Shown here: piece by piece, positions 11,584 through 20,346 of the stretch | Numbering within the stretch: the first letter of the stretch is position 1 | How the letters are laid out: every line of letters begins with the position of its first letter | From: Erysipelothrix rhusiopathiae | Lineage (GTDB): Bacteria > Bacillota_I > Bacilli_A > Erysipelotrichales > Erysipelotrichaceae | Direction: 5' to 3' | NCBI RefSeq assembly: GCF_900637845.1 | Contig: NZ_LR134439.1 | Span: 1,550,001 to 1,614,000, forward strand | Length of the DNA stretch: 64,000 bases | The notes under the pieces: generated by a model | Databases searched by the model: none | What the model was told of the DNA's origin: nothing | Seen by the model: the letters and a program-made list of their open reading frames with translations, nothing else | Program-made: the position numbers and the translations under genes

Positions 11584-11612
11584 TTGAAAACCCTCCGTTC
11601 AAATGTTACAAT
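11584..11612 (+). promoter_or_regulatory. Promoter of licCA-1/licD/licB
   Basis: TTGAAA (11584-11589), 17-base spacer, TACAAT (11607-11612), so transcription would start near 11619. The -35 box begins right after the stop codon of the upstream glycosyltransferase. The spacer contains the left arm of a 16-bp inverted repeat. Confidence 0.72.
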
Positions 11613-11640
11613 ATGTAAGCAAAATTGAACGGAGGGTTTT
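11587..11640 (+). promoter_or_regulatory. Perfect 16-bp inverted repeat enclosing the licCA-1 promoter and ribosome binding site
   Basis: The left arm is AAAACCCTCCGTTCAA (11587-11602) and the right arm TTGAACGGAGGGTTTT (11625-11640), with a 22-base loop. The right arm holds the GGAGGG Shine-Dalgarno and ends at the ATG. The -10 box lies in the loop. mRNA reading through from the glycan genes would contain both arms and hide the ribosome binding site. mRNA started at the internal promoter would lack the left arm. The core GTTCAA-N22-TTGAAC recurs at 15199-15232. Confidence 0.75.
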
Positions 11641-13386
11641 ATGTTTTCGAAATTTTATATTCTCAGAACGTTACTTGAGCAAGAAATTTCATCACAGCGT
11701 GAATTAAGTAAACACACAAATTTTTCCCTAGGGAAAGTCAATTCACTCTTGAATGATTGCATCAATCAAGGATATGTAAATAATTTCAAAATTACAAAAG
11801 AAGGACTTAGGTTTCTTAAAGAATACGAGGTCGATAACGCAATTATTATGGCTGCAGGGTTTGGATCAAGGTTTGTACCTTATACCTATGAAACACCTAA
11901 AGGTCTTATGGAAGTTCACGGTGAGCGCATGGTCGAGCGTCTCATCAAACAACTTCAAGAAGTAGGCATTAAAGAAATATATGTCGTAGTCGGTTATCTC
12001 AAAGAGAAATTTGAATATCTCGTAACAAAATACGGGGTCAAATTGATTCATAATCCCGATTATAATCGATACAACAACATTTCTACGATTTATCATGCAC
12101 AAGATGTTATGAAAAACACTTTAATAATGCCATCAGATATCTATATAATGGAAAATATGTTCCATAAATATGAATTTAAATCTTGGTACGCTACAACGTT
12201 TTTTGAAGGTGAAACGGATGAATGGACTGCAAAAACAGCACCAAGCGGCCTTATTACCGAGATGGAAATTGGCGGCAAGGATGTACTTGGCCTTTATGGA
12301 CCCACATTTTTTGACGCCGAAACATCCCAAAAAATAATTAAAGCAGTTAATCAGGATATTAAGATTGCTGGAAAAGAGCAGTATTACTGGGAGAACTGCT
12401 GGCTCGATCGAATCAATCAAATTCAAATTTATTCAAACGAGGTCGAACCAGAGTCAATCTTCGAGTTCGAATCAATTGAAGAGTTACGTGTTTTTGATAC
12501 GACATATATTACCGAGACAAAAAATGAAATGATTTCAATTATTTGTAATGTCTTCGGAGTTACATCAAATGAGATAACCGGAATTGAGTCCATGAAAAAA
12601 GGGATGACAAATGATTCCTTTATCTTTAGAGTCAATAACAAGTCTTATGTTTTTCGGGCTCCTGGAAAAGGAACTGAACAACTGATAAACCGACGCGAAG
12701 AGGCGAAAGTGTACCAGGCAATTAATCACTTAAAGTTATCGGATAAGCTTTATTATATCAACCCAGAAAACGGTTATAAAATTTCACGTTATTATGATAA
12801 TTGTGAGTCGATTACCCAAGATGATATACCGCAAGCTTTTAGTATCTTACGAATGTTGCACTCAAGCGATATCTCAGTGAGTCATTCCTTTAATTTAGAA
12901 GAACGCATTGCATATTATATGACTTTATGTAAAGATTCTAATGCGATTTTATTCGATGATATCAATGAGGTATCAAGACTCGTTGATGAAGAAATATCCT
13001 ATCTTAATACACTTGAGCGTCCGAAAGTTTTATGTCATATTGATCCAGTGGAATCGAATTTCGTGAAATTATATGATGGTTCTTTACGACTTTTAGATTG
13101 GGAGTATGCAGCCATGGGCGATCCAATATTAGATATCGCGATGCACGCAATTTACTCAGGACATCAAGATGATCAAATCTTAAAATTACTTGAAATCTAT
13201 CTTGAACGAAAACCTACAAAACAGGAGTCTAAAATCTTATTTATGTATGTTAGTTTATCAGGATATCTCTGGGCTTTATGGGCTCAATTTAAACAAGCCA
13301 GCGGGGAATCGTTTGGAAGTTATGCATTGGATCAATACCACTATGCACATAAATATGCACGCTTAGCGTTGTCTATGGAGGACTAA
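11641..13386 (+). CDS. licCA: wHTH - phosphocholine cytidylyltransferase - choline kinase fusion (LicC-LicA type), copy 1
   Basis: This 581-residue protein has three parts. Residues 1-62 resemble a winged helix-turn-helix (SSQRELSKHTNFSLGKVNSL, then a wing ending FKITKEGLRFLKEY). Residues 65-295 are a nucleotidyltransferase with MAAGFGSRF (70-78) and PKGL (86-89), as in LicC, which makes CDP-choline from phosphocholine and CTP. Residues 300-581 are a choline/ethanolamine-kinase domain with HIDPVESN (H466, D468, N473) and LDWEYA (D486). Choline would thus be phosphorylated and activated by one polypeptide. LicC-LicA fusions are known in some bacteria. The N-terminal DNA-binding-like part suggests autoregulation, which is inference. 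licD follows directly. Confidence 0.87.
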   Translation: MFSKFYILRTLLEQEISSQRELSKHTNFSLGKVNSLLNDCINQGYVNNFKITKEGLRFLKEYEVDNAIIMAAGFGSRFVPYTYETPKGLMEVHGERMVERLIKQLQEVGIKEIYVVVGYLKEKFEYLVTKYGVKLIHNPDYNRYNNISTIYHAQDVMKNTLIMPSDIYIMENMFHKYEFKSWYATTFFEGETDEWTAKTAPSGLITEMEIGGKDVLGLYGPTFFDAETSQKIIKAVNQDIKIAGKEQYYWENCWLDRINQIQIYSNEVEPESIFEFESIEELRVFDTTYITETKNEMISIICNVFGVTSNEITGIESMKKGMTNDSFIFRVNNKSYVFRAPGKGTEQLINRREEAKVYQAINHLKLSDKLYYINPENGYKISRYYDNCESITQDDIPQAFSILRMLHSSDISVSHSFNLEERIAYYMTLCKDSNAILFDDINEVSRLVDEEISYLNTLERPKVLCHIDPVESNFVKLYDGSLRLLDWEYAAMGDPILDIAMHAIYSGHQDDQILKLLEIYLERKPTKQESKILFMYVSLSGYLWALWAQFKQASGESFGSYALDQYHYAHKYARLALSMED

Positions 13387-14220
13387 ATGAACAAATTACA
13401 GCAAGAAGAGTTGAATGTTCTCGTCGAATTCGATCGCATTTGTCGAAAACATGATATTATCTATTCACTCTCATCGGGAACTTTATTAGGATCAATCCGT
13501 CATCATGGCTTTATTCCTTGGGATGATGATATTGATGTCAATATGTCTCGCAGTGAATTTAATCGATTCGAAAAAATTGTACTGGAGGAACTGGATAAAG
13601 ATTTCTTCTATCAATCCTTTGATACTGAAAAAGATCACTATCATGCCTTCAGCAAAATTCGAAGTAATAAGGTTGAGCTTGTTGAAAAATCAACTGAGTA
13701 CCTTAATATAAATCATGGAGTTTGGATTGATATATTTCCTTATGATAACATTCCTGATGATATAACACTTCGTGATGAACAAAAGAAAAAAGTAGGTTTT
13801 TACAATAAACTTATTTCTCTATTTGTGTATACATTCGTTACCGATGAAGACAAAGGTAAGAAACGTATCATCAAAAATATTTTTTATCATCTAAATCGAA
13901 TCTTTTATCGTGTAAATTTCTTGCTTCCAAGTCTCTATAAAAAACGTCAATATTGGATTGAAAAATATAATAATGAAAAAACAGAGTATGCGAATATGCT
14001 AGTGTTCAATTATAACGACGCCATCTACAAATCAACATTTATCCGTAATGAAGTTTTAGATTCTGTTACTTCAGGTGTATTTGAAGGCCATGAATTCTTA
14101 ATTCCAACAGCTTATGATGAAATTCTGACTTCAAACTATGGAGACTATATGCAATTACCTCCAGAATCAGAACGTGTTTCCAATCATGAGGTTGTTTTGA
14201 GAGATCATCGCAATGCGTAA
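13387..14220 (+). CDS. licD: LicD-family phosphocholine transferase
   Basis: LicD proteins transfer phosphocholine from CDP-choline onto a sugar of a surface polysaccharide. The 277 residues show the family signature SSGTLLGSIRHHGFIPWDDD with the acidic cluster DDDID at 46-50. A later segment GVWIDIFPYDNIPDD is also typical of the group. No membrane segment or signal peptide is evident, consistent with action on lipid-linked precursors at the inner face. The ATG directly follows the licCA-1 stop and the 3' end overlaps licB by eight bases. Adjacency to glycan genes suggests the acceptor is the polysaccharide made here. Phosphocholine-modified capsule has been reported for Erysipelothrix. Confidence 0.9.
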   Translation: MNKLQQEELNVLVEFDRICRKHDIIYSLSSGTLLGSIRHHGFIPWDDDIDVNMSRSEFNRFEKIVLEELDKDFFYQSFDTEKDHYHAFSKIRSNKVELVEKSTEYLNINHGVWIDIFPYDNIPDDITLRDEQKKKVGFYNKLISLFVYTFVTDEDKGKKRIIKNIFYHLNRIFYRVNFLLPSLYKKRQYWIEKYNNEKTEYANMLVFNYNDAIYKSTFIRNEVLDSVTSGVFEGHEFLIPTAYDEILTSNYGDYMQLPPESERVSNHEVVLRDHRNA

Positions 14221-15151
14221 TAAGGGAACGATTACCGGTTTATTTTCAGGTCTTTTTTGGGGACTTGATACGGTTATGATTGGTGTTGTATTGGCATCCA
14301 CGATGTTCTTAGCTTTTGGATCCAATGCACCGCTAATCTCAACATTTATCCATGATGGCGCGTCCTTCCTATTTTTACTAATCCTCATTGTGATTCAAAA
14401 ACAGGGGAACGATCTGATACGTGTTCTATTTTCGAAGTCGGGTATGATTATCGCAATCGCAGCACTTTTAGGTGGCCCAATCGGCATGGGTGCTTATATC
14501 TTATCCATAAACCATCTTGGACCTGCAATTTCCGCAAGCATTTCTGCGATTTATCCACTATTTGGATCTGTATTAAGCTTTATAATATTAAAAGAAAAGC
14601 CTAATAAACGAACTCTTTTAGGCCTTCTTATTGCGATATCCGCGATTGTCTTGATGGGATTTACAGGTAGTTCAGGGGTAATAAACTTACAAGCGGGTTT
14701 ATTCTTTATATCTATATGCATTATTGGGTGGGGAAGTGAAGCCGTAATTATCAGTACTGCACTTAAACAAGATGTACCATCTCATATTGCACTTGCGATT
14801 CGTCAACTCGTTTCATTTCTTACATATGGACTGATCATAATGCCACTAGTTGGCTATTCTCAACTTCAGTTTTTAGTTGTGAAACACCCTATATTCTTAA
14901 TGATTCTTATCAGTGGAATCATCGGTTCCATTTCGTATTCATTTTACTATAAATCCATATCTCTTATTGGTCCAAGTAAAGCCATGGGACTTAATATCAG
15001 TTATCCAGCATGGGCATTTCTGTTCCAGTTTATGGTCGATCATACATTTAACTATAAAAACTTTATTCTCGTTATTTTTATCATGATTGGATCGATACTT
15101 TCTTCCGAAAACCCACGTGAATTAATAGAACTTTTCAGACGTAAAAAATAA
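14213..15151 (+). CDS. licB: LicB-like choline permease (EamA/DMT transporter family)
   Basis: A 312-residue integral membrane protein with about ten hydrophobic helices in two EamA-like halves, matching drug/metabolite transporters. It begins SGLFWGLDTVMIGVVLA and has GPIGMGAYILSINHLGPAISASISAIYPLFGSVLSF at the end of the first half, with a related repeat SISYSFYYKSISLIGPSKAMGLNISYP in the second. LicB proteins import choline for phosphocholine synthesis, and position after licCA-1 and licD supports that substrate. The start overlaps the licD end by eight bases, so translation is probably coupled. A terminator follows. Confidence 0.86.
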   Translation: MRNKGTITGLFSGLFWGLDTVMIGVVLASTMFLAFGSNAPLISTFIHDGASFLFLLILIVIQKQGNDLIRVLFSKSGMIIAIAALLGGPIGMGAYILSINHLGPAISASISAIYPLFGSVLSFIILKEKPNKRTLLGLLIAISAIVLMGFTGSSGVINLQAGLFFISICIIGWGSEAVIISTALKQDVPSHIALAIRQLVSFLTYGLIIMPLVGYSQLQFLVVKHPIFLMILISGIIGSISYSFYYKSISLIGPSKAMGLNISYPAWAFLFQFMVDHTFNYKNFILVIFIMIGSILSSENPRELIELFRRKK

Positions 15152-15166
15152 TAATTATTGCTAAGA

Positions 15167-15193
15167 AAACAACACAAAAAAGTGTTGTTTTTT
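15167..15193 (+). terminator. Terminator after licB
   Basis: AAACAACAC / GTGTTGTTT stem with a six-A loop, followed by TTTCTTTT. It separates the licCA-1/licD/licB unit from the licCA-2/eutH unit. Confidence 0.85.
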
Positions 15194-15198
15194 CTTTT

Positions 15199-15246
15199 GT
15201 TCAATTTCTTGATATCATTGTCTTTCTTGAACATAAATGATAAAAT
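15199..15246 (+). promoter_or_regulatory. licCA-2 promoter with GTTCAA-N22-TTGAAC dyad
   Basis: A probable promoter TTGTCT (15218-15223), 17-base spacer, TAAAAT (15241-15246). GTTCAA (15199-15204) and TTGAAC (15227-15232) form a dyad with the same 22-base spacing as the core of the licCA-1 repeat. Here the right half-site lies in the promoter spacer and the left one upstream of the -35 box. Confidence 0.6.
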
Positions 15247-15264
15247 TATTAAAAGGAGAATTTC

Positions 15265-17022
15265 ATGAATATCTATCAATTTAAAATTTTGCGTGAGTGT
15301 TTAAATGACGCTACACACGCTCTAGCAATAGACAATGAAGCAATGAAATCATCATACCAAGCTCTCATAAATATGGACTATCTCGATCAAATGGGGAAAA
15401 TAACATCAAAAGGTTTAGAGGCTATGGAAGCTTACCGAGTCGATAATGCGATCATTATGGCTGCAGGAATGTCTTCTCGTTTTGCGCCGCTTTCCTACGA
15501 ACGTCCTAAAGGGCTTTTGAATGTTCGTGGCGAAGTTCTAATTGAACGACAAATCCGTCAATTACATGAGCGAGGTATTACCGATATCACAATCGTTTTA
15601 GGATACATGAAAGAACAGTTTTACTACTTAGAAGACAAGTACAACGTTAAAATTGTAGTCAATGATGATTACTATCGTTACAATAATACTTCGACACTGA
15701 TGCTTGTGCTGGATCAATTAAAAAATACATATATCTGCTCATCCGATAACTACTTCGTAGAGAATGTATTTAATCCGTACGAATATAAAACTACTTATCC
15801 AGTACAAGTACATACGACACATGAAAGCGGAGAATATTATGCGGATTTTACGGATGAAGGGCTAATTACTCAAATCGGCATCGGGTCAGGCACTTACAAT
15901 TGTATGGTTGGTCATGTATTCTTTGATCAGGCATTCTCACACGATTTTGGAGAGCTCTTAAAACAAGAATATCCAAAAGAAGAGACTAAATCTAAGCTTT
16001 GGGAAAAAGTTTATGTAGAACATATGGATCAATTCACAATGTACGCAGAAGTCTATTCCAAAGACATCATTAAAGAATTTGATTCACTTGAAGAACTTCA
16101 AGCCTTTGATGCTTCGTATCTCGAAATCAAAGATAGTGAAATCTTCAATAATATAATGTCTGTGCTCAAGTGCAAAGTTTCAGATATCACGGGTATTGTA
16201 CCTGTTAAAGACGGTCTCACCAATTTATCTCTAAAGTTTGAATATGATGGTAAGGCTTATATTTACCGTCATCCAGGTGTTGGGACTGATGAATACATAA
16301 ACCGTAAATCTGAATTTTTTGCACAACAAAAAGCAAAAGAGTTAGGTTTTGATGATTCCTATATTTATATGGATCCCGAAAAAGGATGGAAATTATCTTA
16401 TTTTATTGATCAAGCTCGAAAACTTGATTATCATCAATGGGATGAAGTAAAGCAAGCACTCGAAATGATTAAAGACATGCATGATCAACAATTATCCGGT
16501 GAATTTGAGTTTAATATTTGGAATAAATCCTGCGACTTTATTGGTAAATTATCACAACAAGATAAAGACGTATTCAGTGATTTTGATGAGTTATTTAAAC
16601 TGATTGAATCTGTAAAAAAATATTCAGATAAGGATAATGTTCCTTTACGATTATGTCACTGTGACTTTTATGACCCAAATATTCTGTTTTCAGGAAACGA
16701 TTTATACCTCATTGATTGGGAATATGCAGGAGTTGATGATCCTGGAGTTGATATTGGTACCTTTATTGCATGTTCGGACTATACTTATGAAGAGGCAATG
16801 CAGGTTCTTGAACTTTATAATAAGACACCTATGGACGCATCAATGCAGCGCCACTTTATCGCATACATCGCGATTGCATCCTATTATTGGTTCGTATGGG
16901 CTATTTTCCAAGAATCAAATGGTGCGGCAGTTGGTGAATATCTGACAATTTGGTATAATAACTCAAAATTCTATGGAAACAAAGCACTTGCACTTTATGA
17001 GGAAACCTATGAAAATAATTAG
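15265..17022 (+). CDS. wHTH-like - nucleotidyltransferase - choline/ethanolamine kinase fusion (LicC-LicA type), copy 2
   Basis: This 585-residue paralogue of the protein at 11641-13386 has the same architecture. Residues 1-57 are a more diverged winged-helix-like segment (EAMKSSYQALINMDYLDQMG, then KITSKGLEAMEAY). A LicC-like nucleotidyltransferase follows with MAAGMSSRF (65-73) and PKGL (81-84), then a kinase domain with HCDFYDPN (H465, D467, N472) and LDWEYA (D484). It should phosphorylate an amino-alcohol and convert it to the CDP form. The partner gene overlapping its 3' end is an EutH-type ethanolamine transporter, so ethanolamine is a plausible substrate. Choline redundancy is the alternative. 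It has its own promoter region and an AAGGAGAA ribosome binding site. Confidence 0.84.
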   Translation: MNIYQFKILRECLNDATHALAIDNEAMKSSYQALINMDYLDQMGKITSKGLEAMEAYRVDNAIIMAAGMSSRFAPLSYERPKGLLNVRGEVLIERQIRQLHERGITDITIVLGYMKEQFYYLEDKYNVKIVVNDDYYRYNNTSTLMLVLDQLKNTYICSSDNYFVENVFNPYEYKTTYPVQVHTTHESGEYYADFTDEGLITQIGIGSGTYNCMVGHVFFDQAFSHDFGELLKQEYPKEETKSKLWEKVYVEHMDQFTMYAEVYSKDIIKEFDSLEELQAFDASYLEIKDSEIFNNIMSVLKCKVSDITGIVPVKDGLTNLSLKFEYDGKAYIYRHPGVGTDEYINRKSEFFAQQKAKELGFDDSYIYMDPEKGWKLSYFIDQARKLDYHQWDEVKQALEMIKDMHDQQLSGEFEFNIWNKSCDFIGKLSQQDKDVFSDFDELFKLIESVKKYSDKDNVPLRLCHCDFYDPNILFSGNDLYLIDWEYAGVDDPGVDIGTFIACSDYTYEEAMQVLELYNKTPMDASMQRHFIAYIAIASYYWFVWAIFQESNGAAVGEYLTIWYNNSKFYGNKALALYEETYENN

Positions 17023-18202
17023 TGATCTTGTCATCTACATCATAATGGCTTGTGCTGTTATTGGTTGTTTTTACTCAATTAAGGATAGTGAATCCGAATT
17101 GGGTAAACAATTCACAGCAGGCATTGAATCAATTGGTGGTTTATTTATTCCCATTGCCGGAATTATGGCAGCGTTACCGATTCTCAATGTTTTTATCTCA
17201 AAATTTATTGCACCACTTTTCACCGTATTTGGTGCAGACGCAGCCATGGCAGCGACATCATTGCTTGCAGTTGATATGGGTGGATATCAACTTGCTGCTG
17301 CTTTAGCACAAACCCATGAAGCATGGATTATTTCCATGACTGTAGGTTATATGGCAGGTGCTACCATTGTGTTTAGTATTCCAATTGCCACTAAGATTAT
17401 CGATGAAAAATATCATCGACAACTTTCAATCGGAACGATGATTGGTTTTATCACAATTCCGTTTGGTGTTTTAGTTACAAATATTCTTATTATGATTTTC
17501 AATCCAATGATCCGAACCGTTGTTTCTTCAGACCCAAATGCACCACAAGTATTATTAAATATGACATTTGTAATTCTTATGAAAAATTTACTACCGTTAA
17601 TTATTATATGTTTACTTATGGCAATTGGTCTTTGGAAAAAATCAGAACTTATGATTAAAGGATTTCAAAACTTTTCAAAATTTATTGAAATATTCACAAA
17701 GGTTATCCTGACAATCAGTATACTTGAGCACTTCACACATATTTTCAGTAATCTTTTTGGTACCTATCCTTTAGATCCTATTATTGCAGATAGCGTTGAT
17801 ATTGAACGTGCACTTGAAGTTGCAGGATACATTGGTTTAATGTTAAGTGGTGCCTTGCCAATGGTATATCTAATTGAAACAAAACTTAAGAAACCTATTG
17901 AAAATTTATCAGACAAACTTAATATTTCACGGAAGATTGCAACCGGAATTCTAGCGAGTTCCGCAAATGTGATCGCCGCATTCACAATGATCGATGATAC
18001 GATGGATGATCGTGAAATTATCGTAATTACAGCATTTTCAGTCTGTGGGGCATTTGTTATTGGTGACCATCTAGCATTCACCGCTAATTTTCAACCACAG
18101 TTGATCCTTCCGTTGATGATTGGGAAACTTACTGCAGGACTTCTTGCAGTTTGGATTGCTCTCAAAGTAACGTCTAAAATCTCAACAAATAACACGCTTT
18201 AA
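17009..18202 (+). CDS. eutH: EutH-type ethanolamine transporter
   Basis: A 397-residue polytopic membrane protein with about eleven helices. Family-defining segments match EutH: ATSLLAVDMGGYQLA, GATIVFSIPIATKII, MLSGALPMVYLIETKLKKP and CGAFVIGDHLAF near the C-terminus. EutH facilitates ethanolamine entry and normally sits in eut microcompartment clusters, none of which is visible here. I use the ATG at 17009, preceded by GAGGAAACCT. An in-frame ATG 12 codons upstream lies deep inside licCA-2 and lacks a good site. The 14-base overlap with licCA-2 implies translational coupling and a shared task, probably feeding ethanolamine to the kinase. A terminator follows. Confidence 0.85.
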   Translation: MKIISDLVIYIIMACAVIGCFYSIKDSESELGKQFTAGIESIGGLFIPIAGIMAALPILNVFISKFIAPLFTVFGADAAMAATSLLAVDMGGYQLAAALAQTHEAWIISMTVGYMAGATIVFSIPIATKIIDEKYHRQLSIGTMIGFITIPFGVLVTNILIMIFNPMIRTVVSSDPNAPQVLLNMTFVILMKNLLPLIIICLLMAIGLWKKSELMIKGFQNFSKFIEIFTKVILTISILEHFTHIFSNLFGTYPLDPIIADSVDIERALEVAGYIGLMLSGALPMVYLIETKLKKPIENLSDKLNISRKIATGILASSANVIAAFTMIDDTMDDREIIVITAFSVCGAFVIGDHLAFTANFQPQLILPLMIGKLTAGLLAVWIALKVTSKISTNNTL

Positions 18203-18331: not shown

Positions 18332-18601
18332 ATGAAAGCAATTATTACAGTAGTAGGACGAGATAACGTTGGAATTATCTCAGGAGTATGTCAATATTTA
18401 TCATCAGAACAGATTAACGTTCTTGATATCAACCAAACAATTGTTGATGCATATTTTAATATGCTTATGATTGTTGATTTATCACAATGTTCAAAACCCT
18501 TTGATGAAATATCAAAGCAACTTCAATCGGTGGCAAGCACCCTTGGAGTTGTCATTACGATGCAACGTGAGGATATTTTTTCCTCGATGCACCGAATTTA
18601 G
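18332..18601 (+). CDS. ACT-domain protein (UPF0237 family)
   Basis: An 89-residue single ACT domain: [37 protein letters not shown] gives the beta-alpha-beta start with the ligand-binding Gly, then MLMIVDLS as the third strand. Proteins of this family are small dimeric sensors of an amino acid or similar ligand. They are commonly encoded just before a UPF0210 protein, as here, where the next gene starts eight bases downstream. The conserved pair suggests a joint function, but the ligand and process are unknown. The ribosome binding site is GAGAGGTG. Confidence 0.88.
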
Positions 18602-18609
18602 GAGGATTT

Positions 18610-19968
18610 ATGCTTAATCAATTCGAAATTCAAGAGACACAATCAATGATTTCAAATCAAAACTTAGATGTTCGTACCATTACTATGGGGATCAGTTTAT
18701 TAGACTGTGCAGATTCTGATTTAGACCGGTTTAATGAAAAAATCTATCATAAAATAACGTCACGTGCTAAAGACTTAGTACGCATAGGTGATGAAATTGC
18801 ACATGAGTATGGAATTCCTGTCGTTAATAAACGCATTTCTATTACGCCTATTGCGATTGCTGCATCGGGATGTAATGCGACATCATTTGTTTCAACCGCA
18901 AAGATTCTCGATAAAGCCGCAAAAGAGGTTGGTGTTGATTTTATTGGTGGTTTTAGTGCTATTGTTCAAAAAGGGTGTACAGCTGCAGATGAAGTGCTAA
19001 TTCAAAGCATTCCTGAAGCATTAGCAGTCACCGATCGTGTATGTGCGAGTGTCAATGTTGGTACAAGTCGTAGTGGTATTAATATGGATGTGGTTAAACA
19101 GCTTGGTCAAACGATTCTTGATTGTGCCAAACTAACTGGAGATCGCGAATCCATTGGATGTGCTAAACTTGTTGTTTTCTGTAATTCAGTCGAGGACAAT
19201 CCATTTATGGCAGGGGCTTACCATGGTGTTGGTGAAGCTGATACGGTGATTAATGTTGGGGTCAGTGGACCCGGTGTTGTTAAATGTGCATTGGAATCGG
19301 CACGTGGGGCAGATTTTGAGACACTCTGTGAGACGATAAAGAAGACTGCATTTAAAATTACCCGAGTTGGTCAGTTGATTGCTCAAGAGGCATCGAAGCG
19401 TCTAGGATATCCTTTCGGAATCATCGACCTTTCACTCGCGCCGACACCTGCAATAGGTGATAGTATCGGTGAAATCTTTCAAGAGATGGGACTTGAAGAA
19501 CCGGGTGCACCCGGTACAACACTTGCATTAGCACTGCTTAATGACAATGTGAAAAAAGGTGGCGTGATGGCTTCATCTTATGTTGGTGGTCTAAGTGGTG
19601 CTTTTATCCCCGTGAGCGAAGATCATGTTATGATATCTGCTGTGGAAAAAGGGGCACTTACACTTGAAAAACTTGAAGCAATGACTTGTGTTTGTTCTGT
19701 TGGTTTAGATATGGTTGCGATCCCAGGGGATACACCTGCGACGACAATCTCAGGCATTATTGGTGATGAGGCTGCAATTGGAATGATCAATAATAAAACT
19801 ACCGCAGTACGAATCATCCCAGCATACGGTAAAGGGGTAGGCGAAACGGTTGAATTTGGTGGGTTGTTGGGTTATGCTCCTATCATGAAGGTAAATCCTT
19901 TTAGCTGTGAATCCTTTATTAATCGAGGTGGACGTATTCCGGCACCCATTCACAGTTTTAAAAATTAG
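18610..19968 (+). CDS. UPF0210 (DUF711) family protein
   Basis: A 452-residue cytosolic protein of the widely conserved UPF0210/PFL group. It has recognisable segments [65 protein letters not shown] and [27 protein letters not shown]. The Gly- and Ser-rich core and pyruvate-formate-lyase-like fold are family features, but no reaction is established to my knowledge. It is paired with the ACT-domain gene upstream, probably as its regulatory partner, and followed 12 bases later by a small thioesterase. Start chosen at the ATG after AGGAGGATTT. Function remains unassigned. Confidence 0.9.
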
Positions 19969-19980
19969 TAGGAGTTTATA

Positions 19981-20346
19981 ATGGATAAAAAATTAGATTT
20001 TATGTCTGTTAATAAGATTGAATGTGTTGAAGTTAAAGAAGATTATGCGAAATGTATTGTTCATGTTAATGAGGCATCGATGAATTACTATGGTTATGTC
20101 CATGGTGGTCTTTATTTTGGGCTTGCAGATTCGACGGCAGGTTATACGGCAAGCAGTCGTGGAGATAATTACGTCACATTGAACGCGAATATTAATTACA
20201 TGTCTGGTATTCAAACAGGAATGATTACATGTATTGGTACCGTTTTAAGTCGCACACGAAAAACATGCGTTGTTGATATCAAAATATACGACGATAACGA
20301 TGTATTGTGTGATACCGGTACGTTTACGATGTACCATATAAACTAA
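19981..20346 (+). CDS. Hotdog-fold thioesterase (PaaI-like)
   Basis: A 121-residue single hotdog domain. YYGYVHGGLYFGLADSTAGYTASSRG is the hallmark central helix region (HGG, then the acidic residue of ADSTAGY). A typical strand pattern follows, with VTLNANINYMSG and TCIGTVLSRTRKTCVVDIKIYDD. Members hydrolyse acyl-CoA or related thioesters, and substrate is not predictable from sequence. The start follows AGGAGTTTATA. The gene lies tightly between the UPF0210 gene and a DsrE-like gene, suggesting an operon from 18332 to the terminator at 20679. Confidence 0.85.
   Translation: MDKKLDFMSVNKIECVEVKEDYAKCIVHVNEASMNYYGYVHGGLYFGLADSTAGYTASSRGDNYVTLNANINYMSGIQTGMITCIGTVLSRTRKTCVVDIKIYDDNDVLCDTGTFTMYHIN

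Follow-up and report, generated by a model that had tools for sequence, protein, structure and literature searches.

The NadR protein of enteric bacteria comprises a helix-turn-helix (HTH) domain, a nicotinamide mononucleotide adenylyltransferase and a ribosylnicotinamide kinase. The biotin ligase-repressor BirA has an N-terminal winged helix and a widely spaced inverted-repeat operator. Both proteins, like PutA, are counted among the trigger enzymes (PMC8249747). The LicC-LicA fusion of Treponema denticola makes cytidine diphosphate (CDP)-choline and is described as an enzyme (Kent et al. 2004, as cited in PMC8590670); the literature search turned up nothing on a DNA-binding domain in it or on its regulation. 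The present analysis concerns two such fusions, LicCA-1 and LicCA-2, encoded in a stretch of 64,000 nucleotides (the window; NZ_LR134439.1, positions 1,550,001 to 1,614,000) of the 1.77-Mb, single-contig genome of Erysipelothrix rhusiopathiae. With a probability of about 0.83, LicCA-1 is an enzyme-repressor that controls CDP-aminoalcohol supply, its own gene included, and LicCA-2 is an enzyme only, under its control.

LicCA-1 follows the same logic and order as NadR, with an N-terminal DNA-binding domain, a nucleotidyltransferase, and a C-terminal kinase that phosphorylates a salvaged compound. In contrast, its HTH, nucleotidyltransferase and kinase belong to other families, and its pathway leads to CDP-choline instead of nicotinamide adenine dinucleotide. 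Its enzyme domains are of the LicC and LicA types, which places it outside the NadR family; it apparently works like NadR as a second, seemingly unrelated HTH-nucleotidyltransferase-kinase architecture. It resembles BirA in having a winged helix N-terminal to an activating enzyme and a widely spaced inverted-repeat operator, but the enzymes are unrelated, BirA has no kinase, and the operator sequences differ. The fold of LicCA-1 residues 1-70 is like that of the MarR-type winged helices (MarR_EPS, Rv2887, CggR), whereas the MarR dimerisation helices are lacking and the effector domain is an enzyme. The catalytic domains of Streptococcus pneumoniae LicC (1JYK) and LicA (4R77) are homologous, but these are separate proteins without a winged helix. 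Two features of a trigger enzyme are present in LicCA-1: catalytic and DNA-binding domains in one chain and, on comparative evidence, a specific operator at its own and pathway promoters. Ligand-dependent DNA binding, a third such feature, is predicted. A literature search, with many subscription papers outside its reach, found no paper on a winged helix of LicC or LicCA, on a lic repressor or on this operator, nor any regulator described for the phosphocholine pathway in this form.

The gene licCA-1 (11641-13386, plus strand) encodes 581 residues: a winged helix, then a cytidylyltransferase of the LicC type and a kinase of the LicA type. Residues 1-62 score above threshold for two Pfam families, HTH_24 (29.3 bits, cut-off 21.9) and wHTH-PRTase_assc (31.3 bits, cut-off 27). 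The winged-helix domain (residues 1-63, 11641-11829) was modelled with AlphaFold2 as a 70-residue N-terminal domain. Residues 11-60 have a predicted local distance difference test (pLDDT) score of 93-96 and form a helix, a second helix, a recognition helix, two short strands and a helix. The HTH itself (residues 19-43, 11695-11769) carries the QRELS...SLGKVN recognition helix, with model helices at 19-26 and 30-43. Almost every high-ranking PDB match is a DNA-binding protein with a winged helix, among them Rv2887 (TM 0.78, Z 11.5) and CggR (Z 11.2) in complex with DNA. A query of only 70 residues explains the weak Foldseek E-values (best 0.05). With a three-helix HTH core, a wing and a family score above the cut-off, the domain is of the MarR type, and its match to NCBIfam MarR_EPS (TIGR04176; 1.9e-7, 31.1 bits) stays below the curated cut-off of 88 bits and does not place it in that family. 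In an N-terminal alignment of 54 relatives from three phyla, the conserved residues are those of the HTH turn and recognition helix: Q19 and R20 are invariant, and S29, L30, G31 and N34 are nearly so.

The N-terminus of LicCA-2 (585 residues; licCA-2, 15265-17022, plus strand) is a winged-helix remnant (residues 1-58, 15265-15438). No Pfam family scores above its cut-off there, and the alignment lacks nine residues of HTH helix 2. The full-length AlphaFold2 model has a helix at 3-14, a low-confidence stretch (mean pLDDT of 64 for residues 11-20), and helices at 25-36 and 48-57, with HTH helix 2 absent. Between this genome and G005, the N-terminus of copy 1 is its most conserved part, with a nonsynonymous divergence (dN) of 0.027 compared to 0.080 for the rest, whereas that of copy 2 evolves fast (dN 0.31, 59% identity) against 0.066 for the rest. 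Selection therefore constrains the winged helix strongly in copy 1 and has relaxed on that of copy 2. The original prediction had placed a winged helix in both copies and proposed structure prediction of the two N-termini. This holds for copy 1, on the Pfam scores, the AlphaFold2 model and the winged-helix PDB matches, and is wrong for copy 2, where a decayed remnant with an incomplete HTH, no family hit and relaxed selection is found.

Both proteins have the two enzyme domains, and the coordinates, domain order and enzyme motifs noted earlier are confirmed. Pfam finds NTP_transf_3 and Choline_kinase in each. The nearest solved relatives are LicC 1JYK (1.7e-41) and LicA 4R77 (3.7e-32) for LicCA-1, and LicC 1JYK (9.7e-35) and the choline kinase 3DXQ for LicCA-2. 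The LicC signature GXG(T/S)RX4-8PK reads GFGSR-X8-PK in LicCA-1. In LicCA-2 it reads GMSSR...PK, with the second G substituted, and is counted as LicC-type together with the 1JYK homology. The LicA-type kinase elements, namely the Brenner motif HxDx3-4N, DWEY and the Trp-Trp-Tyr choline pocket (residues from PMC4364537), appear as CHIDPVESN, LDWEY and WALW...Y aligned to 4R77. Judged from sequence, the cytidylyltransferase substrate may be phosphocholine, with phosphoethanolamine or 2-aminoethylphosphonate (AEP) as alternatives.

Both licCA promoters carry the inverted repeat GTTCAA-N22-TTGAAC. These two copies compare with 0.01 expected by chance in the window, and the genome has no further exact copy. 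Putative operator 1 (11596-11631, CGTTCA-N24-TGAACG; core 11597-11630) spans the -10 box and the side of the ribosome-binding site (RBS). Promoter P1 (11584-11612, plus strand; -35 TTGAAA, 17-bp spacer, extended TG -10 TACAAT; 10 of 12 matches in a consensus scan) lies under its left half, with TACAAT between the half-sites. Putative operator 2 (15198-15233, TGTTCA-N24-TGAACA; core 15199-15232) is kept in G001 and G005, and its right half-site falls between -35 and -10 in the spacer of promoter P2 (15218-15246, plus strand; TTGTCT, 17-bp spacer, TAAAAT). The two regions that had been proposed for footprinting were well chosen, as each contains the shared operator. The operator is kept upstream of orthologues in G001, G005 and G011. 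Sites with one mismatch are at control level in the own genome (24 vs 18 for a reversed pattern), and the analysis was therefore restricted to sites that are exact or conserved in position.

After comparison of orthologues, the strict site was broadened to TGTTCA-N24..26-TGAACA and then tested on new loci. The Erysipelothrix form, refined from upstream regions, is TGTTCA(A/T)-N22..23-(A/T)TGAACA, equal to TGTTCA-N24..25-TGAACA. Thirteen Erysipelothrix genomes contain 24 exact refined sites, compared to 5 for the reversed pattern. Sixteen of these lie directly 5' of licCA-1 or licCA-2, a kinase-eutH operon, choline-kinase-like genes, cytidylyltransferase-aminotransferase/DUF1015 genes or genes of an ATP-binding cassette (ABC) operon; the candidates include genes without an HTH. 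The ABC operon has an HTH-cytidylyltransferase gene last and a binding protein resembling 2-aminoethylphosphonate carriers. In G008 (a fragmented assembly) and G010, LicCA begins directly at the enzyme without a winged helix, and these are the only two of the 13 genomes without any exact operator. Exact sites away from lic genes that recur between species of Erysipelothrix and Streptococcus seem to reflect conservation of the coding sequence and were left out of the target set.

A cytidylyltransferase-aminotransferase gene adjoining a DUF1015 gene has the same operator in L055 (16027-17847 and 14978-16024), and also in L057 and L061. The aminotransferase domain is CobD-like, and the DUF1015 family includes serine kinases. 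From these two assignments, a route from serine through phosphoethanolamine to CDP-ethanolamine can reasonably be inferred for the pair; the literature search, with the same reach, did not find a link between DUF1015 and CDP-ethanolamine.

Outside the genus, 84,980 species genomes were scanned, and the best 80 relatives form an uneven sample with many related members. They are mostly Lachnospiraceae and other Clostridia, and also include Streptococcus, Parvimonas, Gardnerella, Coriobacteriales, a metagenome-assembled genome of Propionibacteriaceae and Treponema vincentii. The survey covered genes whose HTH motif is intact and whose upstream sequence is long enough; an operator was accepted if it lay within 200 bp upstream, had no more than one mismatch and had a spacer of 24-26. 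The operator is present in 64 of 68 such genes (41 exact), spread over Firmicutes, Actinobacteria and Spirochaetes, compared to 0.26% of shuffled upstream regions, without an exact hit, and 9 of 489 other open reading frames of the same loci. At 60% protein identity the genes form 18 clusters, 17 of them with the operator. The T. vincentii homologue scores above the HTH_24 cut-off and has an exact operator with a spacer of 26.

Operator and HTH also co-vary. Each of the 11 HTH-bearing licCA genes of Streptococcus has the site no more than about 65 bp 5' of its start codon, whereas it is absent from 13 stand-alone licC genes, which in this differ from licCA-1, and from four HTH-less licCA genes. 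The HTH of Clostridium algidicarnis is degraded, and its genome has no exact site. Of eight ABC operons in other Erysipelotrichaceae that end in a kinase-less HTH-cytidylyltransferase gene, six carry the operator at their head with 0-1 mismatch. The original prediction of an enzyme whose own DNA-binding domain controls its operon is strongly supported for copy 1 by fold, shared operator and cross-phylum co-occurrence, and is not supported for copy 2 with its degenerate HTH.

The sites recur before further genes of the pathway. Eighteen complete or draft genomes contain 43 exact sites, compared to 12 in the reversed-pattern control, and in Lachnospiraceae these lie before BCCT choline/betaine transporter genes besides licCA. 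The licCA operators are also common to divergent genes of choline-binding-repeat proteins. Among the 44 operator-bearing loci longer than 10 kb, LicCA is the one gene family that none lacks. Choline-binding proteins follow, in 30 loci, and no regulator family recurs.

Several variants were seen among these loci. The BCCT genes with an exact operator (L206, L207, L209-L211; Pfam-confirmed in L206 and L210) are often near small secreted proteins of unknown function. Operator-headed AEP-type ABC operons ending in a kinase-less HTH-cytidylyltransferase of about 300 residues occur in L053, L054, L067, L253-L255, L257, L259 and L260; the terminal HTH is degenerate in L053 and L054. In L197, L201 and L229 the right half-site TGAACA overlaps the start codon (ATGAACA), and the operator extends into the coding sequence. 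A compact TGTTCA-N5-TGAACA, with half-sites one turn apart, replaces the N24..26 form 5' of the start codon in L241. L171 and L193 (a 766-residue open frame) are LicCA-like with a degenerate HTH and about 180 extra residues.

In the mechanism proposed from this wholly computational evidence, LicCA-1 would be kinase, cytidylyltransferase and DNA-binding repressor in one, and its N-terminal winged helix would bind TGTTCA-N24..26-TGAACA. The half-site centres are 30-32 bp apart, or 2.9-3.0 turns of B-DNA; they therefore lie on the same DNA face, which suits a dimer. Of the 64 operators, 34 share their first base with the end of the -10 box and about 15 contain the -10 box, an overlap that has the geometry of a repressor site. 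When CDP-choline or CDP-ethanolamine is plentiful, occupancy would block the promoters of licCA-1/licD/eamA and licCA-2/eutH. Scarcity of activated head-groups would lift repression, and the genes for uptake, phosphorylation and activation would be expressed. LicCA-2, having lost its HTH, would act as an enzyme only and be controlled by LicCA-1. The ligand signal most likely enters through the cytidylyltransferase domain, since kinase-less HTH-cytidylyltransferase proteins appear to use the same operator.

An origin of the sites by chance or composition, as short AT-rich palindromes close to promoters, agrees with the near-control number of one-mismatch sites in the own genome, but is refuted by the restriction of exact sites to the two licCA promoters, by the 64 of 68 against shuffled regions and by both reversed-pattern comparisons; its probability is practically nil. 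It is also very improbable that the repeats act as RNA hairpins, whether as attenuator, terminator or RBS sequestration. At copy 1, a perfect 16-bp inverted repeat (11587-11640; arms 11587-11602 and 11625-11640) prolongs operator 1 across the RBS, and its arms fold at -28.2 kcal/mol (z -8.1). The site of copy 2 and three of four others, however, fold no better than shuffles, with Treponema as the exception (z -2.6), and no Rfam match was found. The half-site sequence is conserved across phyla, which pairing alone does not need, and in most loci the left half lies at or before the -10 box and therefore outside the main transcript. A third explanation accepts the operator and assigns it to a separate factor encoded elsewhere, with the LicCA winged helix as a structural or dimerisation domain. 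Operator-bearing targets without an HTH would fit this, as would G012, in which the HTH is intact and no lic operator is recognisable, its single exact site not being tied to a lic gene. It is nevertheless improbable: LicCA alone is common to all 44 loci, without a shared regulator family, HTH loss accompanies operator loss within Erysipelothrix and within Streptococcus, and within the N-terminus, conservation across three phyla is highest at the HTH residues.

A different sense of regulation carries more weight, though it is still unlikely. LicCA may be a substrate-induced repressor or an activator, so that choline or ethanolamine switches the genes on, and the targets do include transporters and kinases, which are useful with substrate present. 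Yet the operator also precedes the apparent de novo phosphoserine-to-CDP-ethanolamine pair (cytidylyltransferase-aminotransferase and DUF1015), a better fit to derepression on scarcity, and the overlap of the operators with -10 boxes or start sites is not that of activator sites. End-product repression by LicCA-1 is favoured because genes for uptake, kinase, activation and apparent de novo phosphoethanolamine synthesis share the site. Certain points weigh against it as a whole, besides G012 and the possible separate factor. The LicC enzyme of S. pneumoniae is monomeric (PMC6697681), and a half-site spacing of three turns is unusual for a MarR-type dimer. Four of the 68 HTH-intact genes have no operator, L170 combines an atypical recognition helix with a weak site, and the 80 loci, all top hits from a single scan, carry the uneven sampling described.

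Natural copies separate the two functions. Those of L055 (4959-6719; Erysipelothrix G004) and L241 (Streptococcus G225) have kept the HTH and lost the GXGSR signature, and L241 additionally lacks the catalytic lysine. In PntC, substitution of Arg15 or Lys25 lowers activity below 10% (PMC6697681). In the other direction, LicCA-2, L064 and others have kept the enzyme and lost the HTH. Separation in both directions argues that HTH and enzyme are each selected on their own. The L055 and L241 copies are possibly dedicated sensors, and LicCA-2 is more likely a regulatory target than a second regulator, because its HTH is degenerate. A broader and tentative reading, to which somewhat less than even odds are given, is that HTH-LicC(A) proteins are widespread, unrecognised enzyme-repressors that sense head-groups. 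The cytidylyltransferase active site would itself do the sensing: whether CDP-choline or CDP-ethanolamine fills it would set the spacing of the two winged helices over half-sites three turns apart. Duplicates would have split into pure sensors (L055, L241) and pure enzymes (LicCA-2, L064).

The lic locus contains, in order, licCA-1, licD, an EamA transporter gene, licCA-2 and eutH. The licD phosphotransferase gene (13387-14220, plus strand; PF04991, 2.5e-44) is the operon partner of licCA-1, and the EamA-family transporter gene (14213-15151, plus strand; PF00892) has a LicB-like position. A terminator-like hairpin (15164-15193, plus strand) closes this first operon. The eutH-like ethanolamine permease gene (16973-18202, probable start 17009, plus strand; PF04346, 1.5e-109) is probably co-transcribed with licCA-2. 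Genes of an ACT-domain protein, a DUF711 protein and a hotdog thioesterase at 18332-20346 accompany lic genes in several Erysipelothrix species (L055, L068, L070). A capsule-type cluster with a bacterial sugar transferase, EpsG and glycosyltransferases lies 5' of the lic locus. In the 16-bp repeat (11587-11640) and its orthologues in G005, G011 and G001, the arm opposite the RBS partly co-changes (CCCTCC/GGAGGG vs CCTC/GAGG); a role of the repeat in masking the RBS in read-through transcripts from the capsule operon is suggested.

Surface phosphocholine matters for host interaction in many bacteria. If the proposed role of LicCA-1 is true, one protein senses, phosphorylates, activates and regulates. 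The operator TGTTCA-N24..26-TGAACA would make choline, ethanolamine and phosphonate regulons readable from the genomes of Lachnospiraceae, streptococci, Gardnerella, Treponema and Erysipelothrix. As a second architecture beside NadR, and with the natural separation-of-function copies available, LicCA would make the evolution from enzyme to repressor testable.

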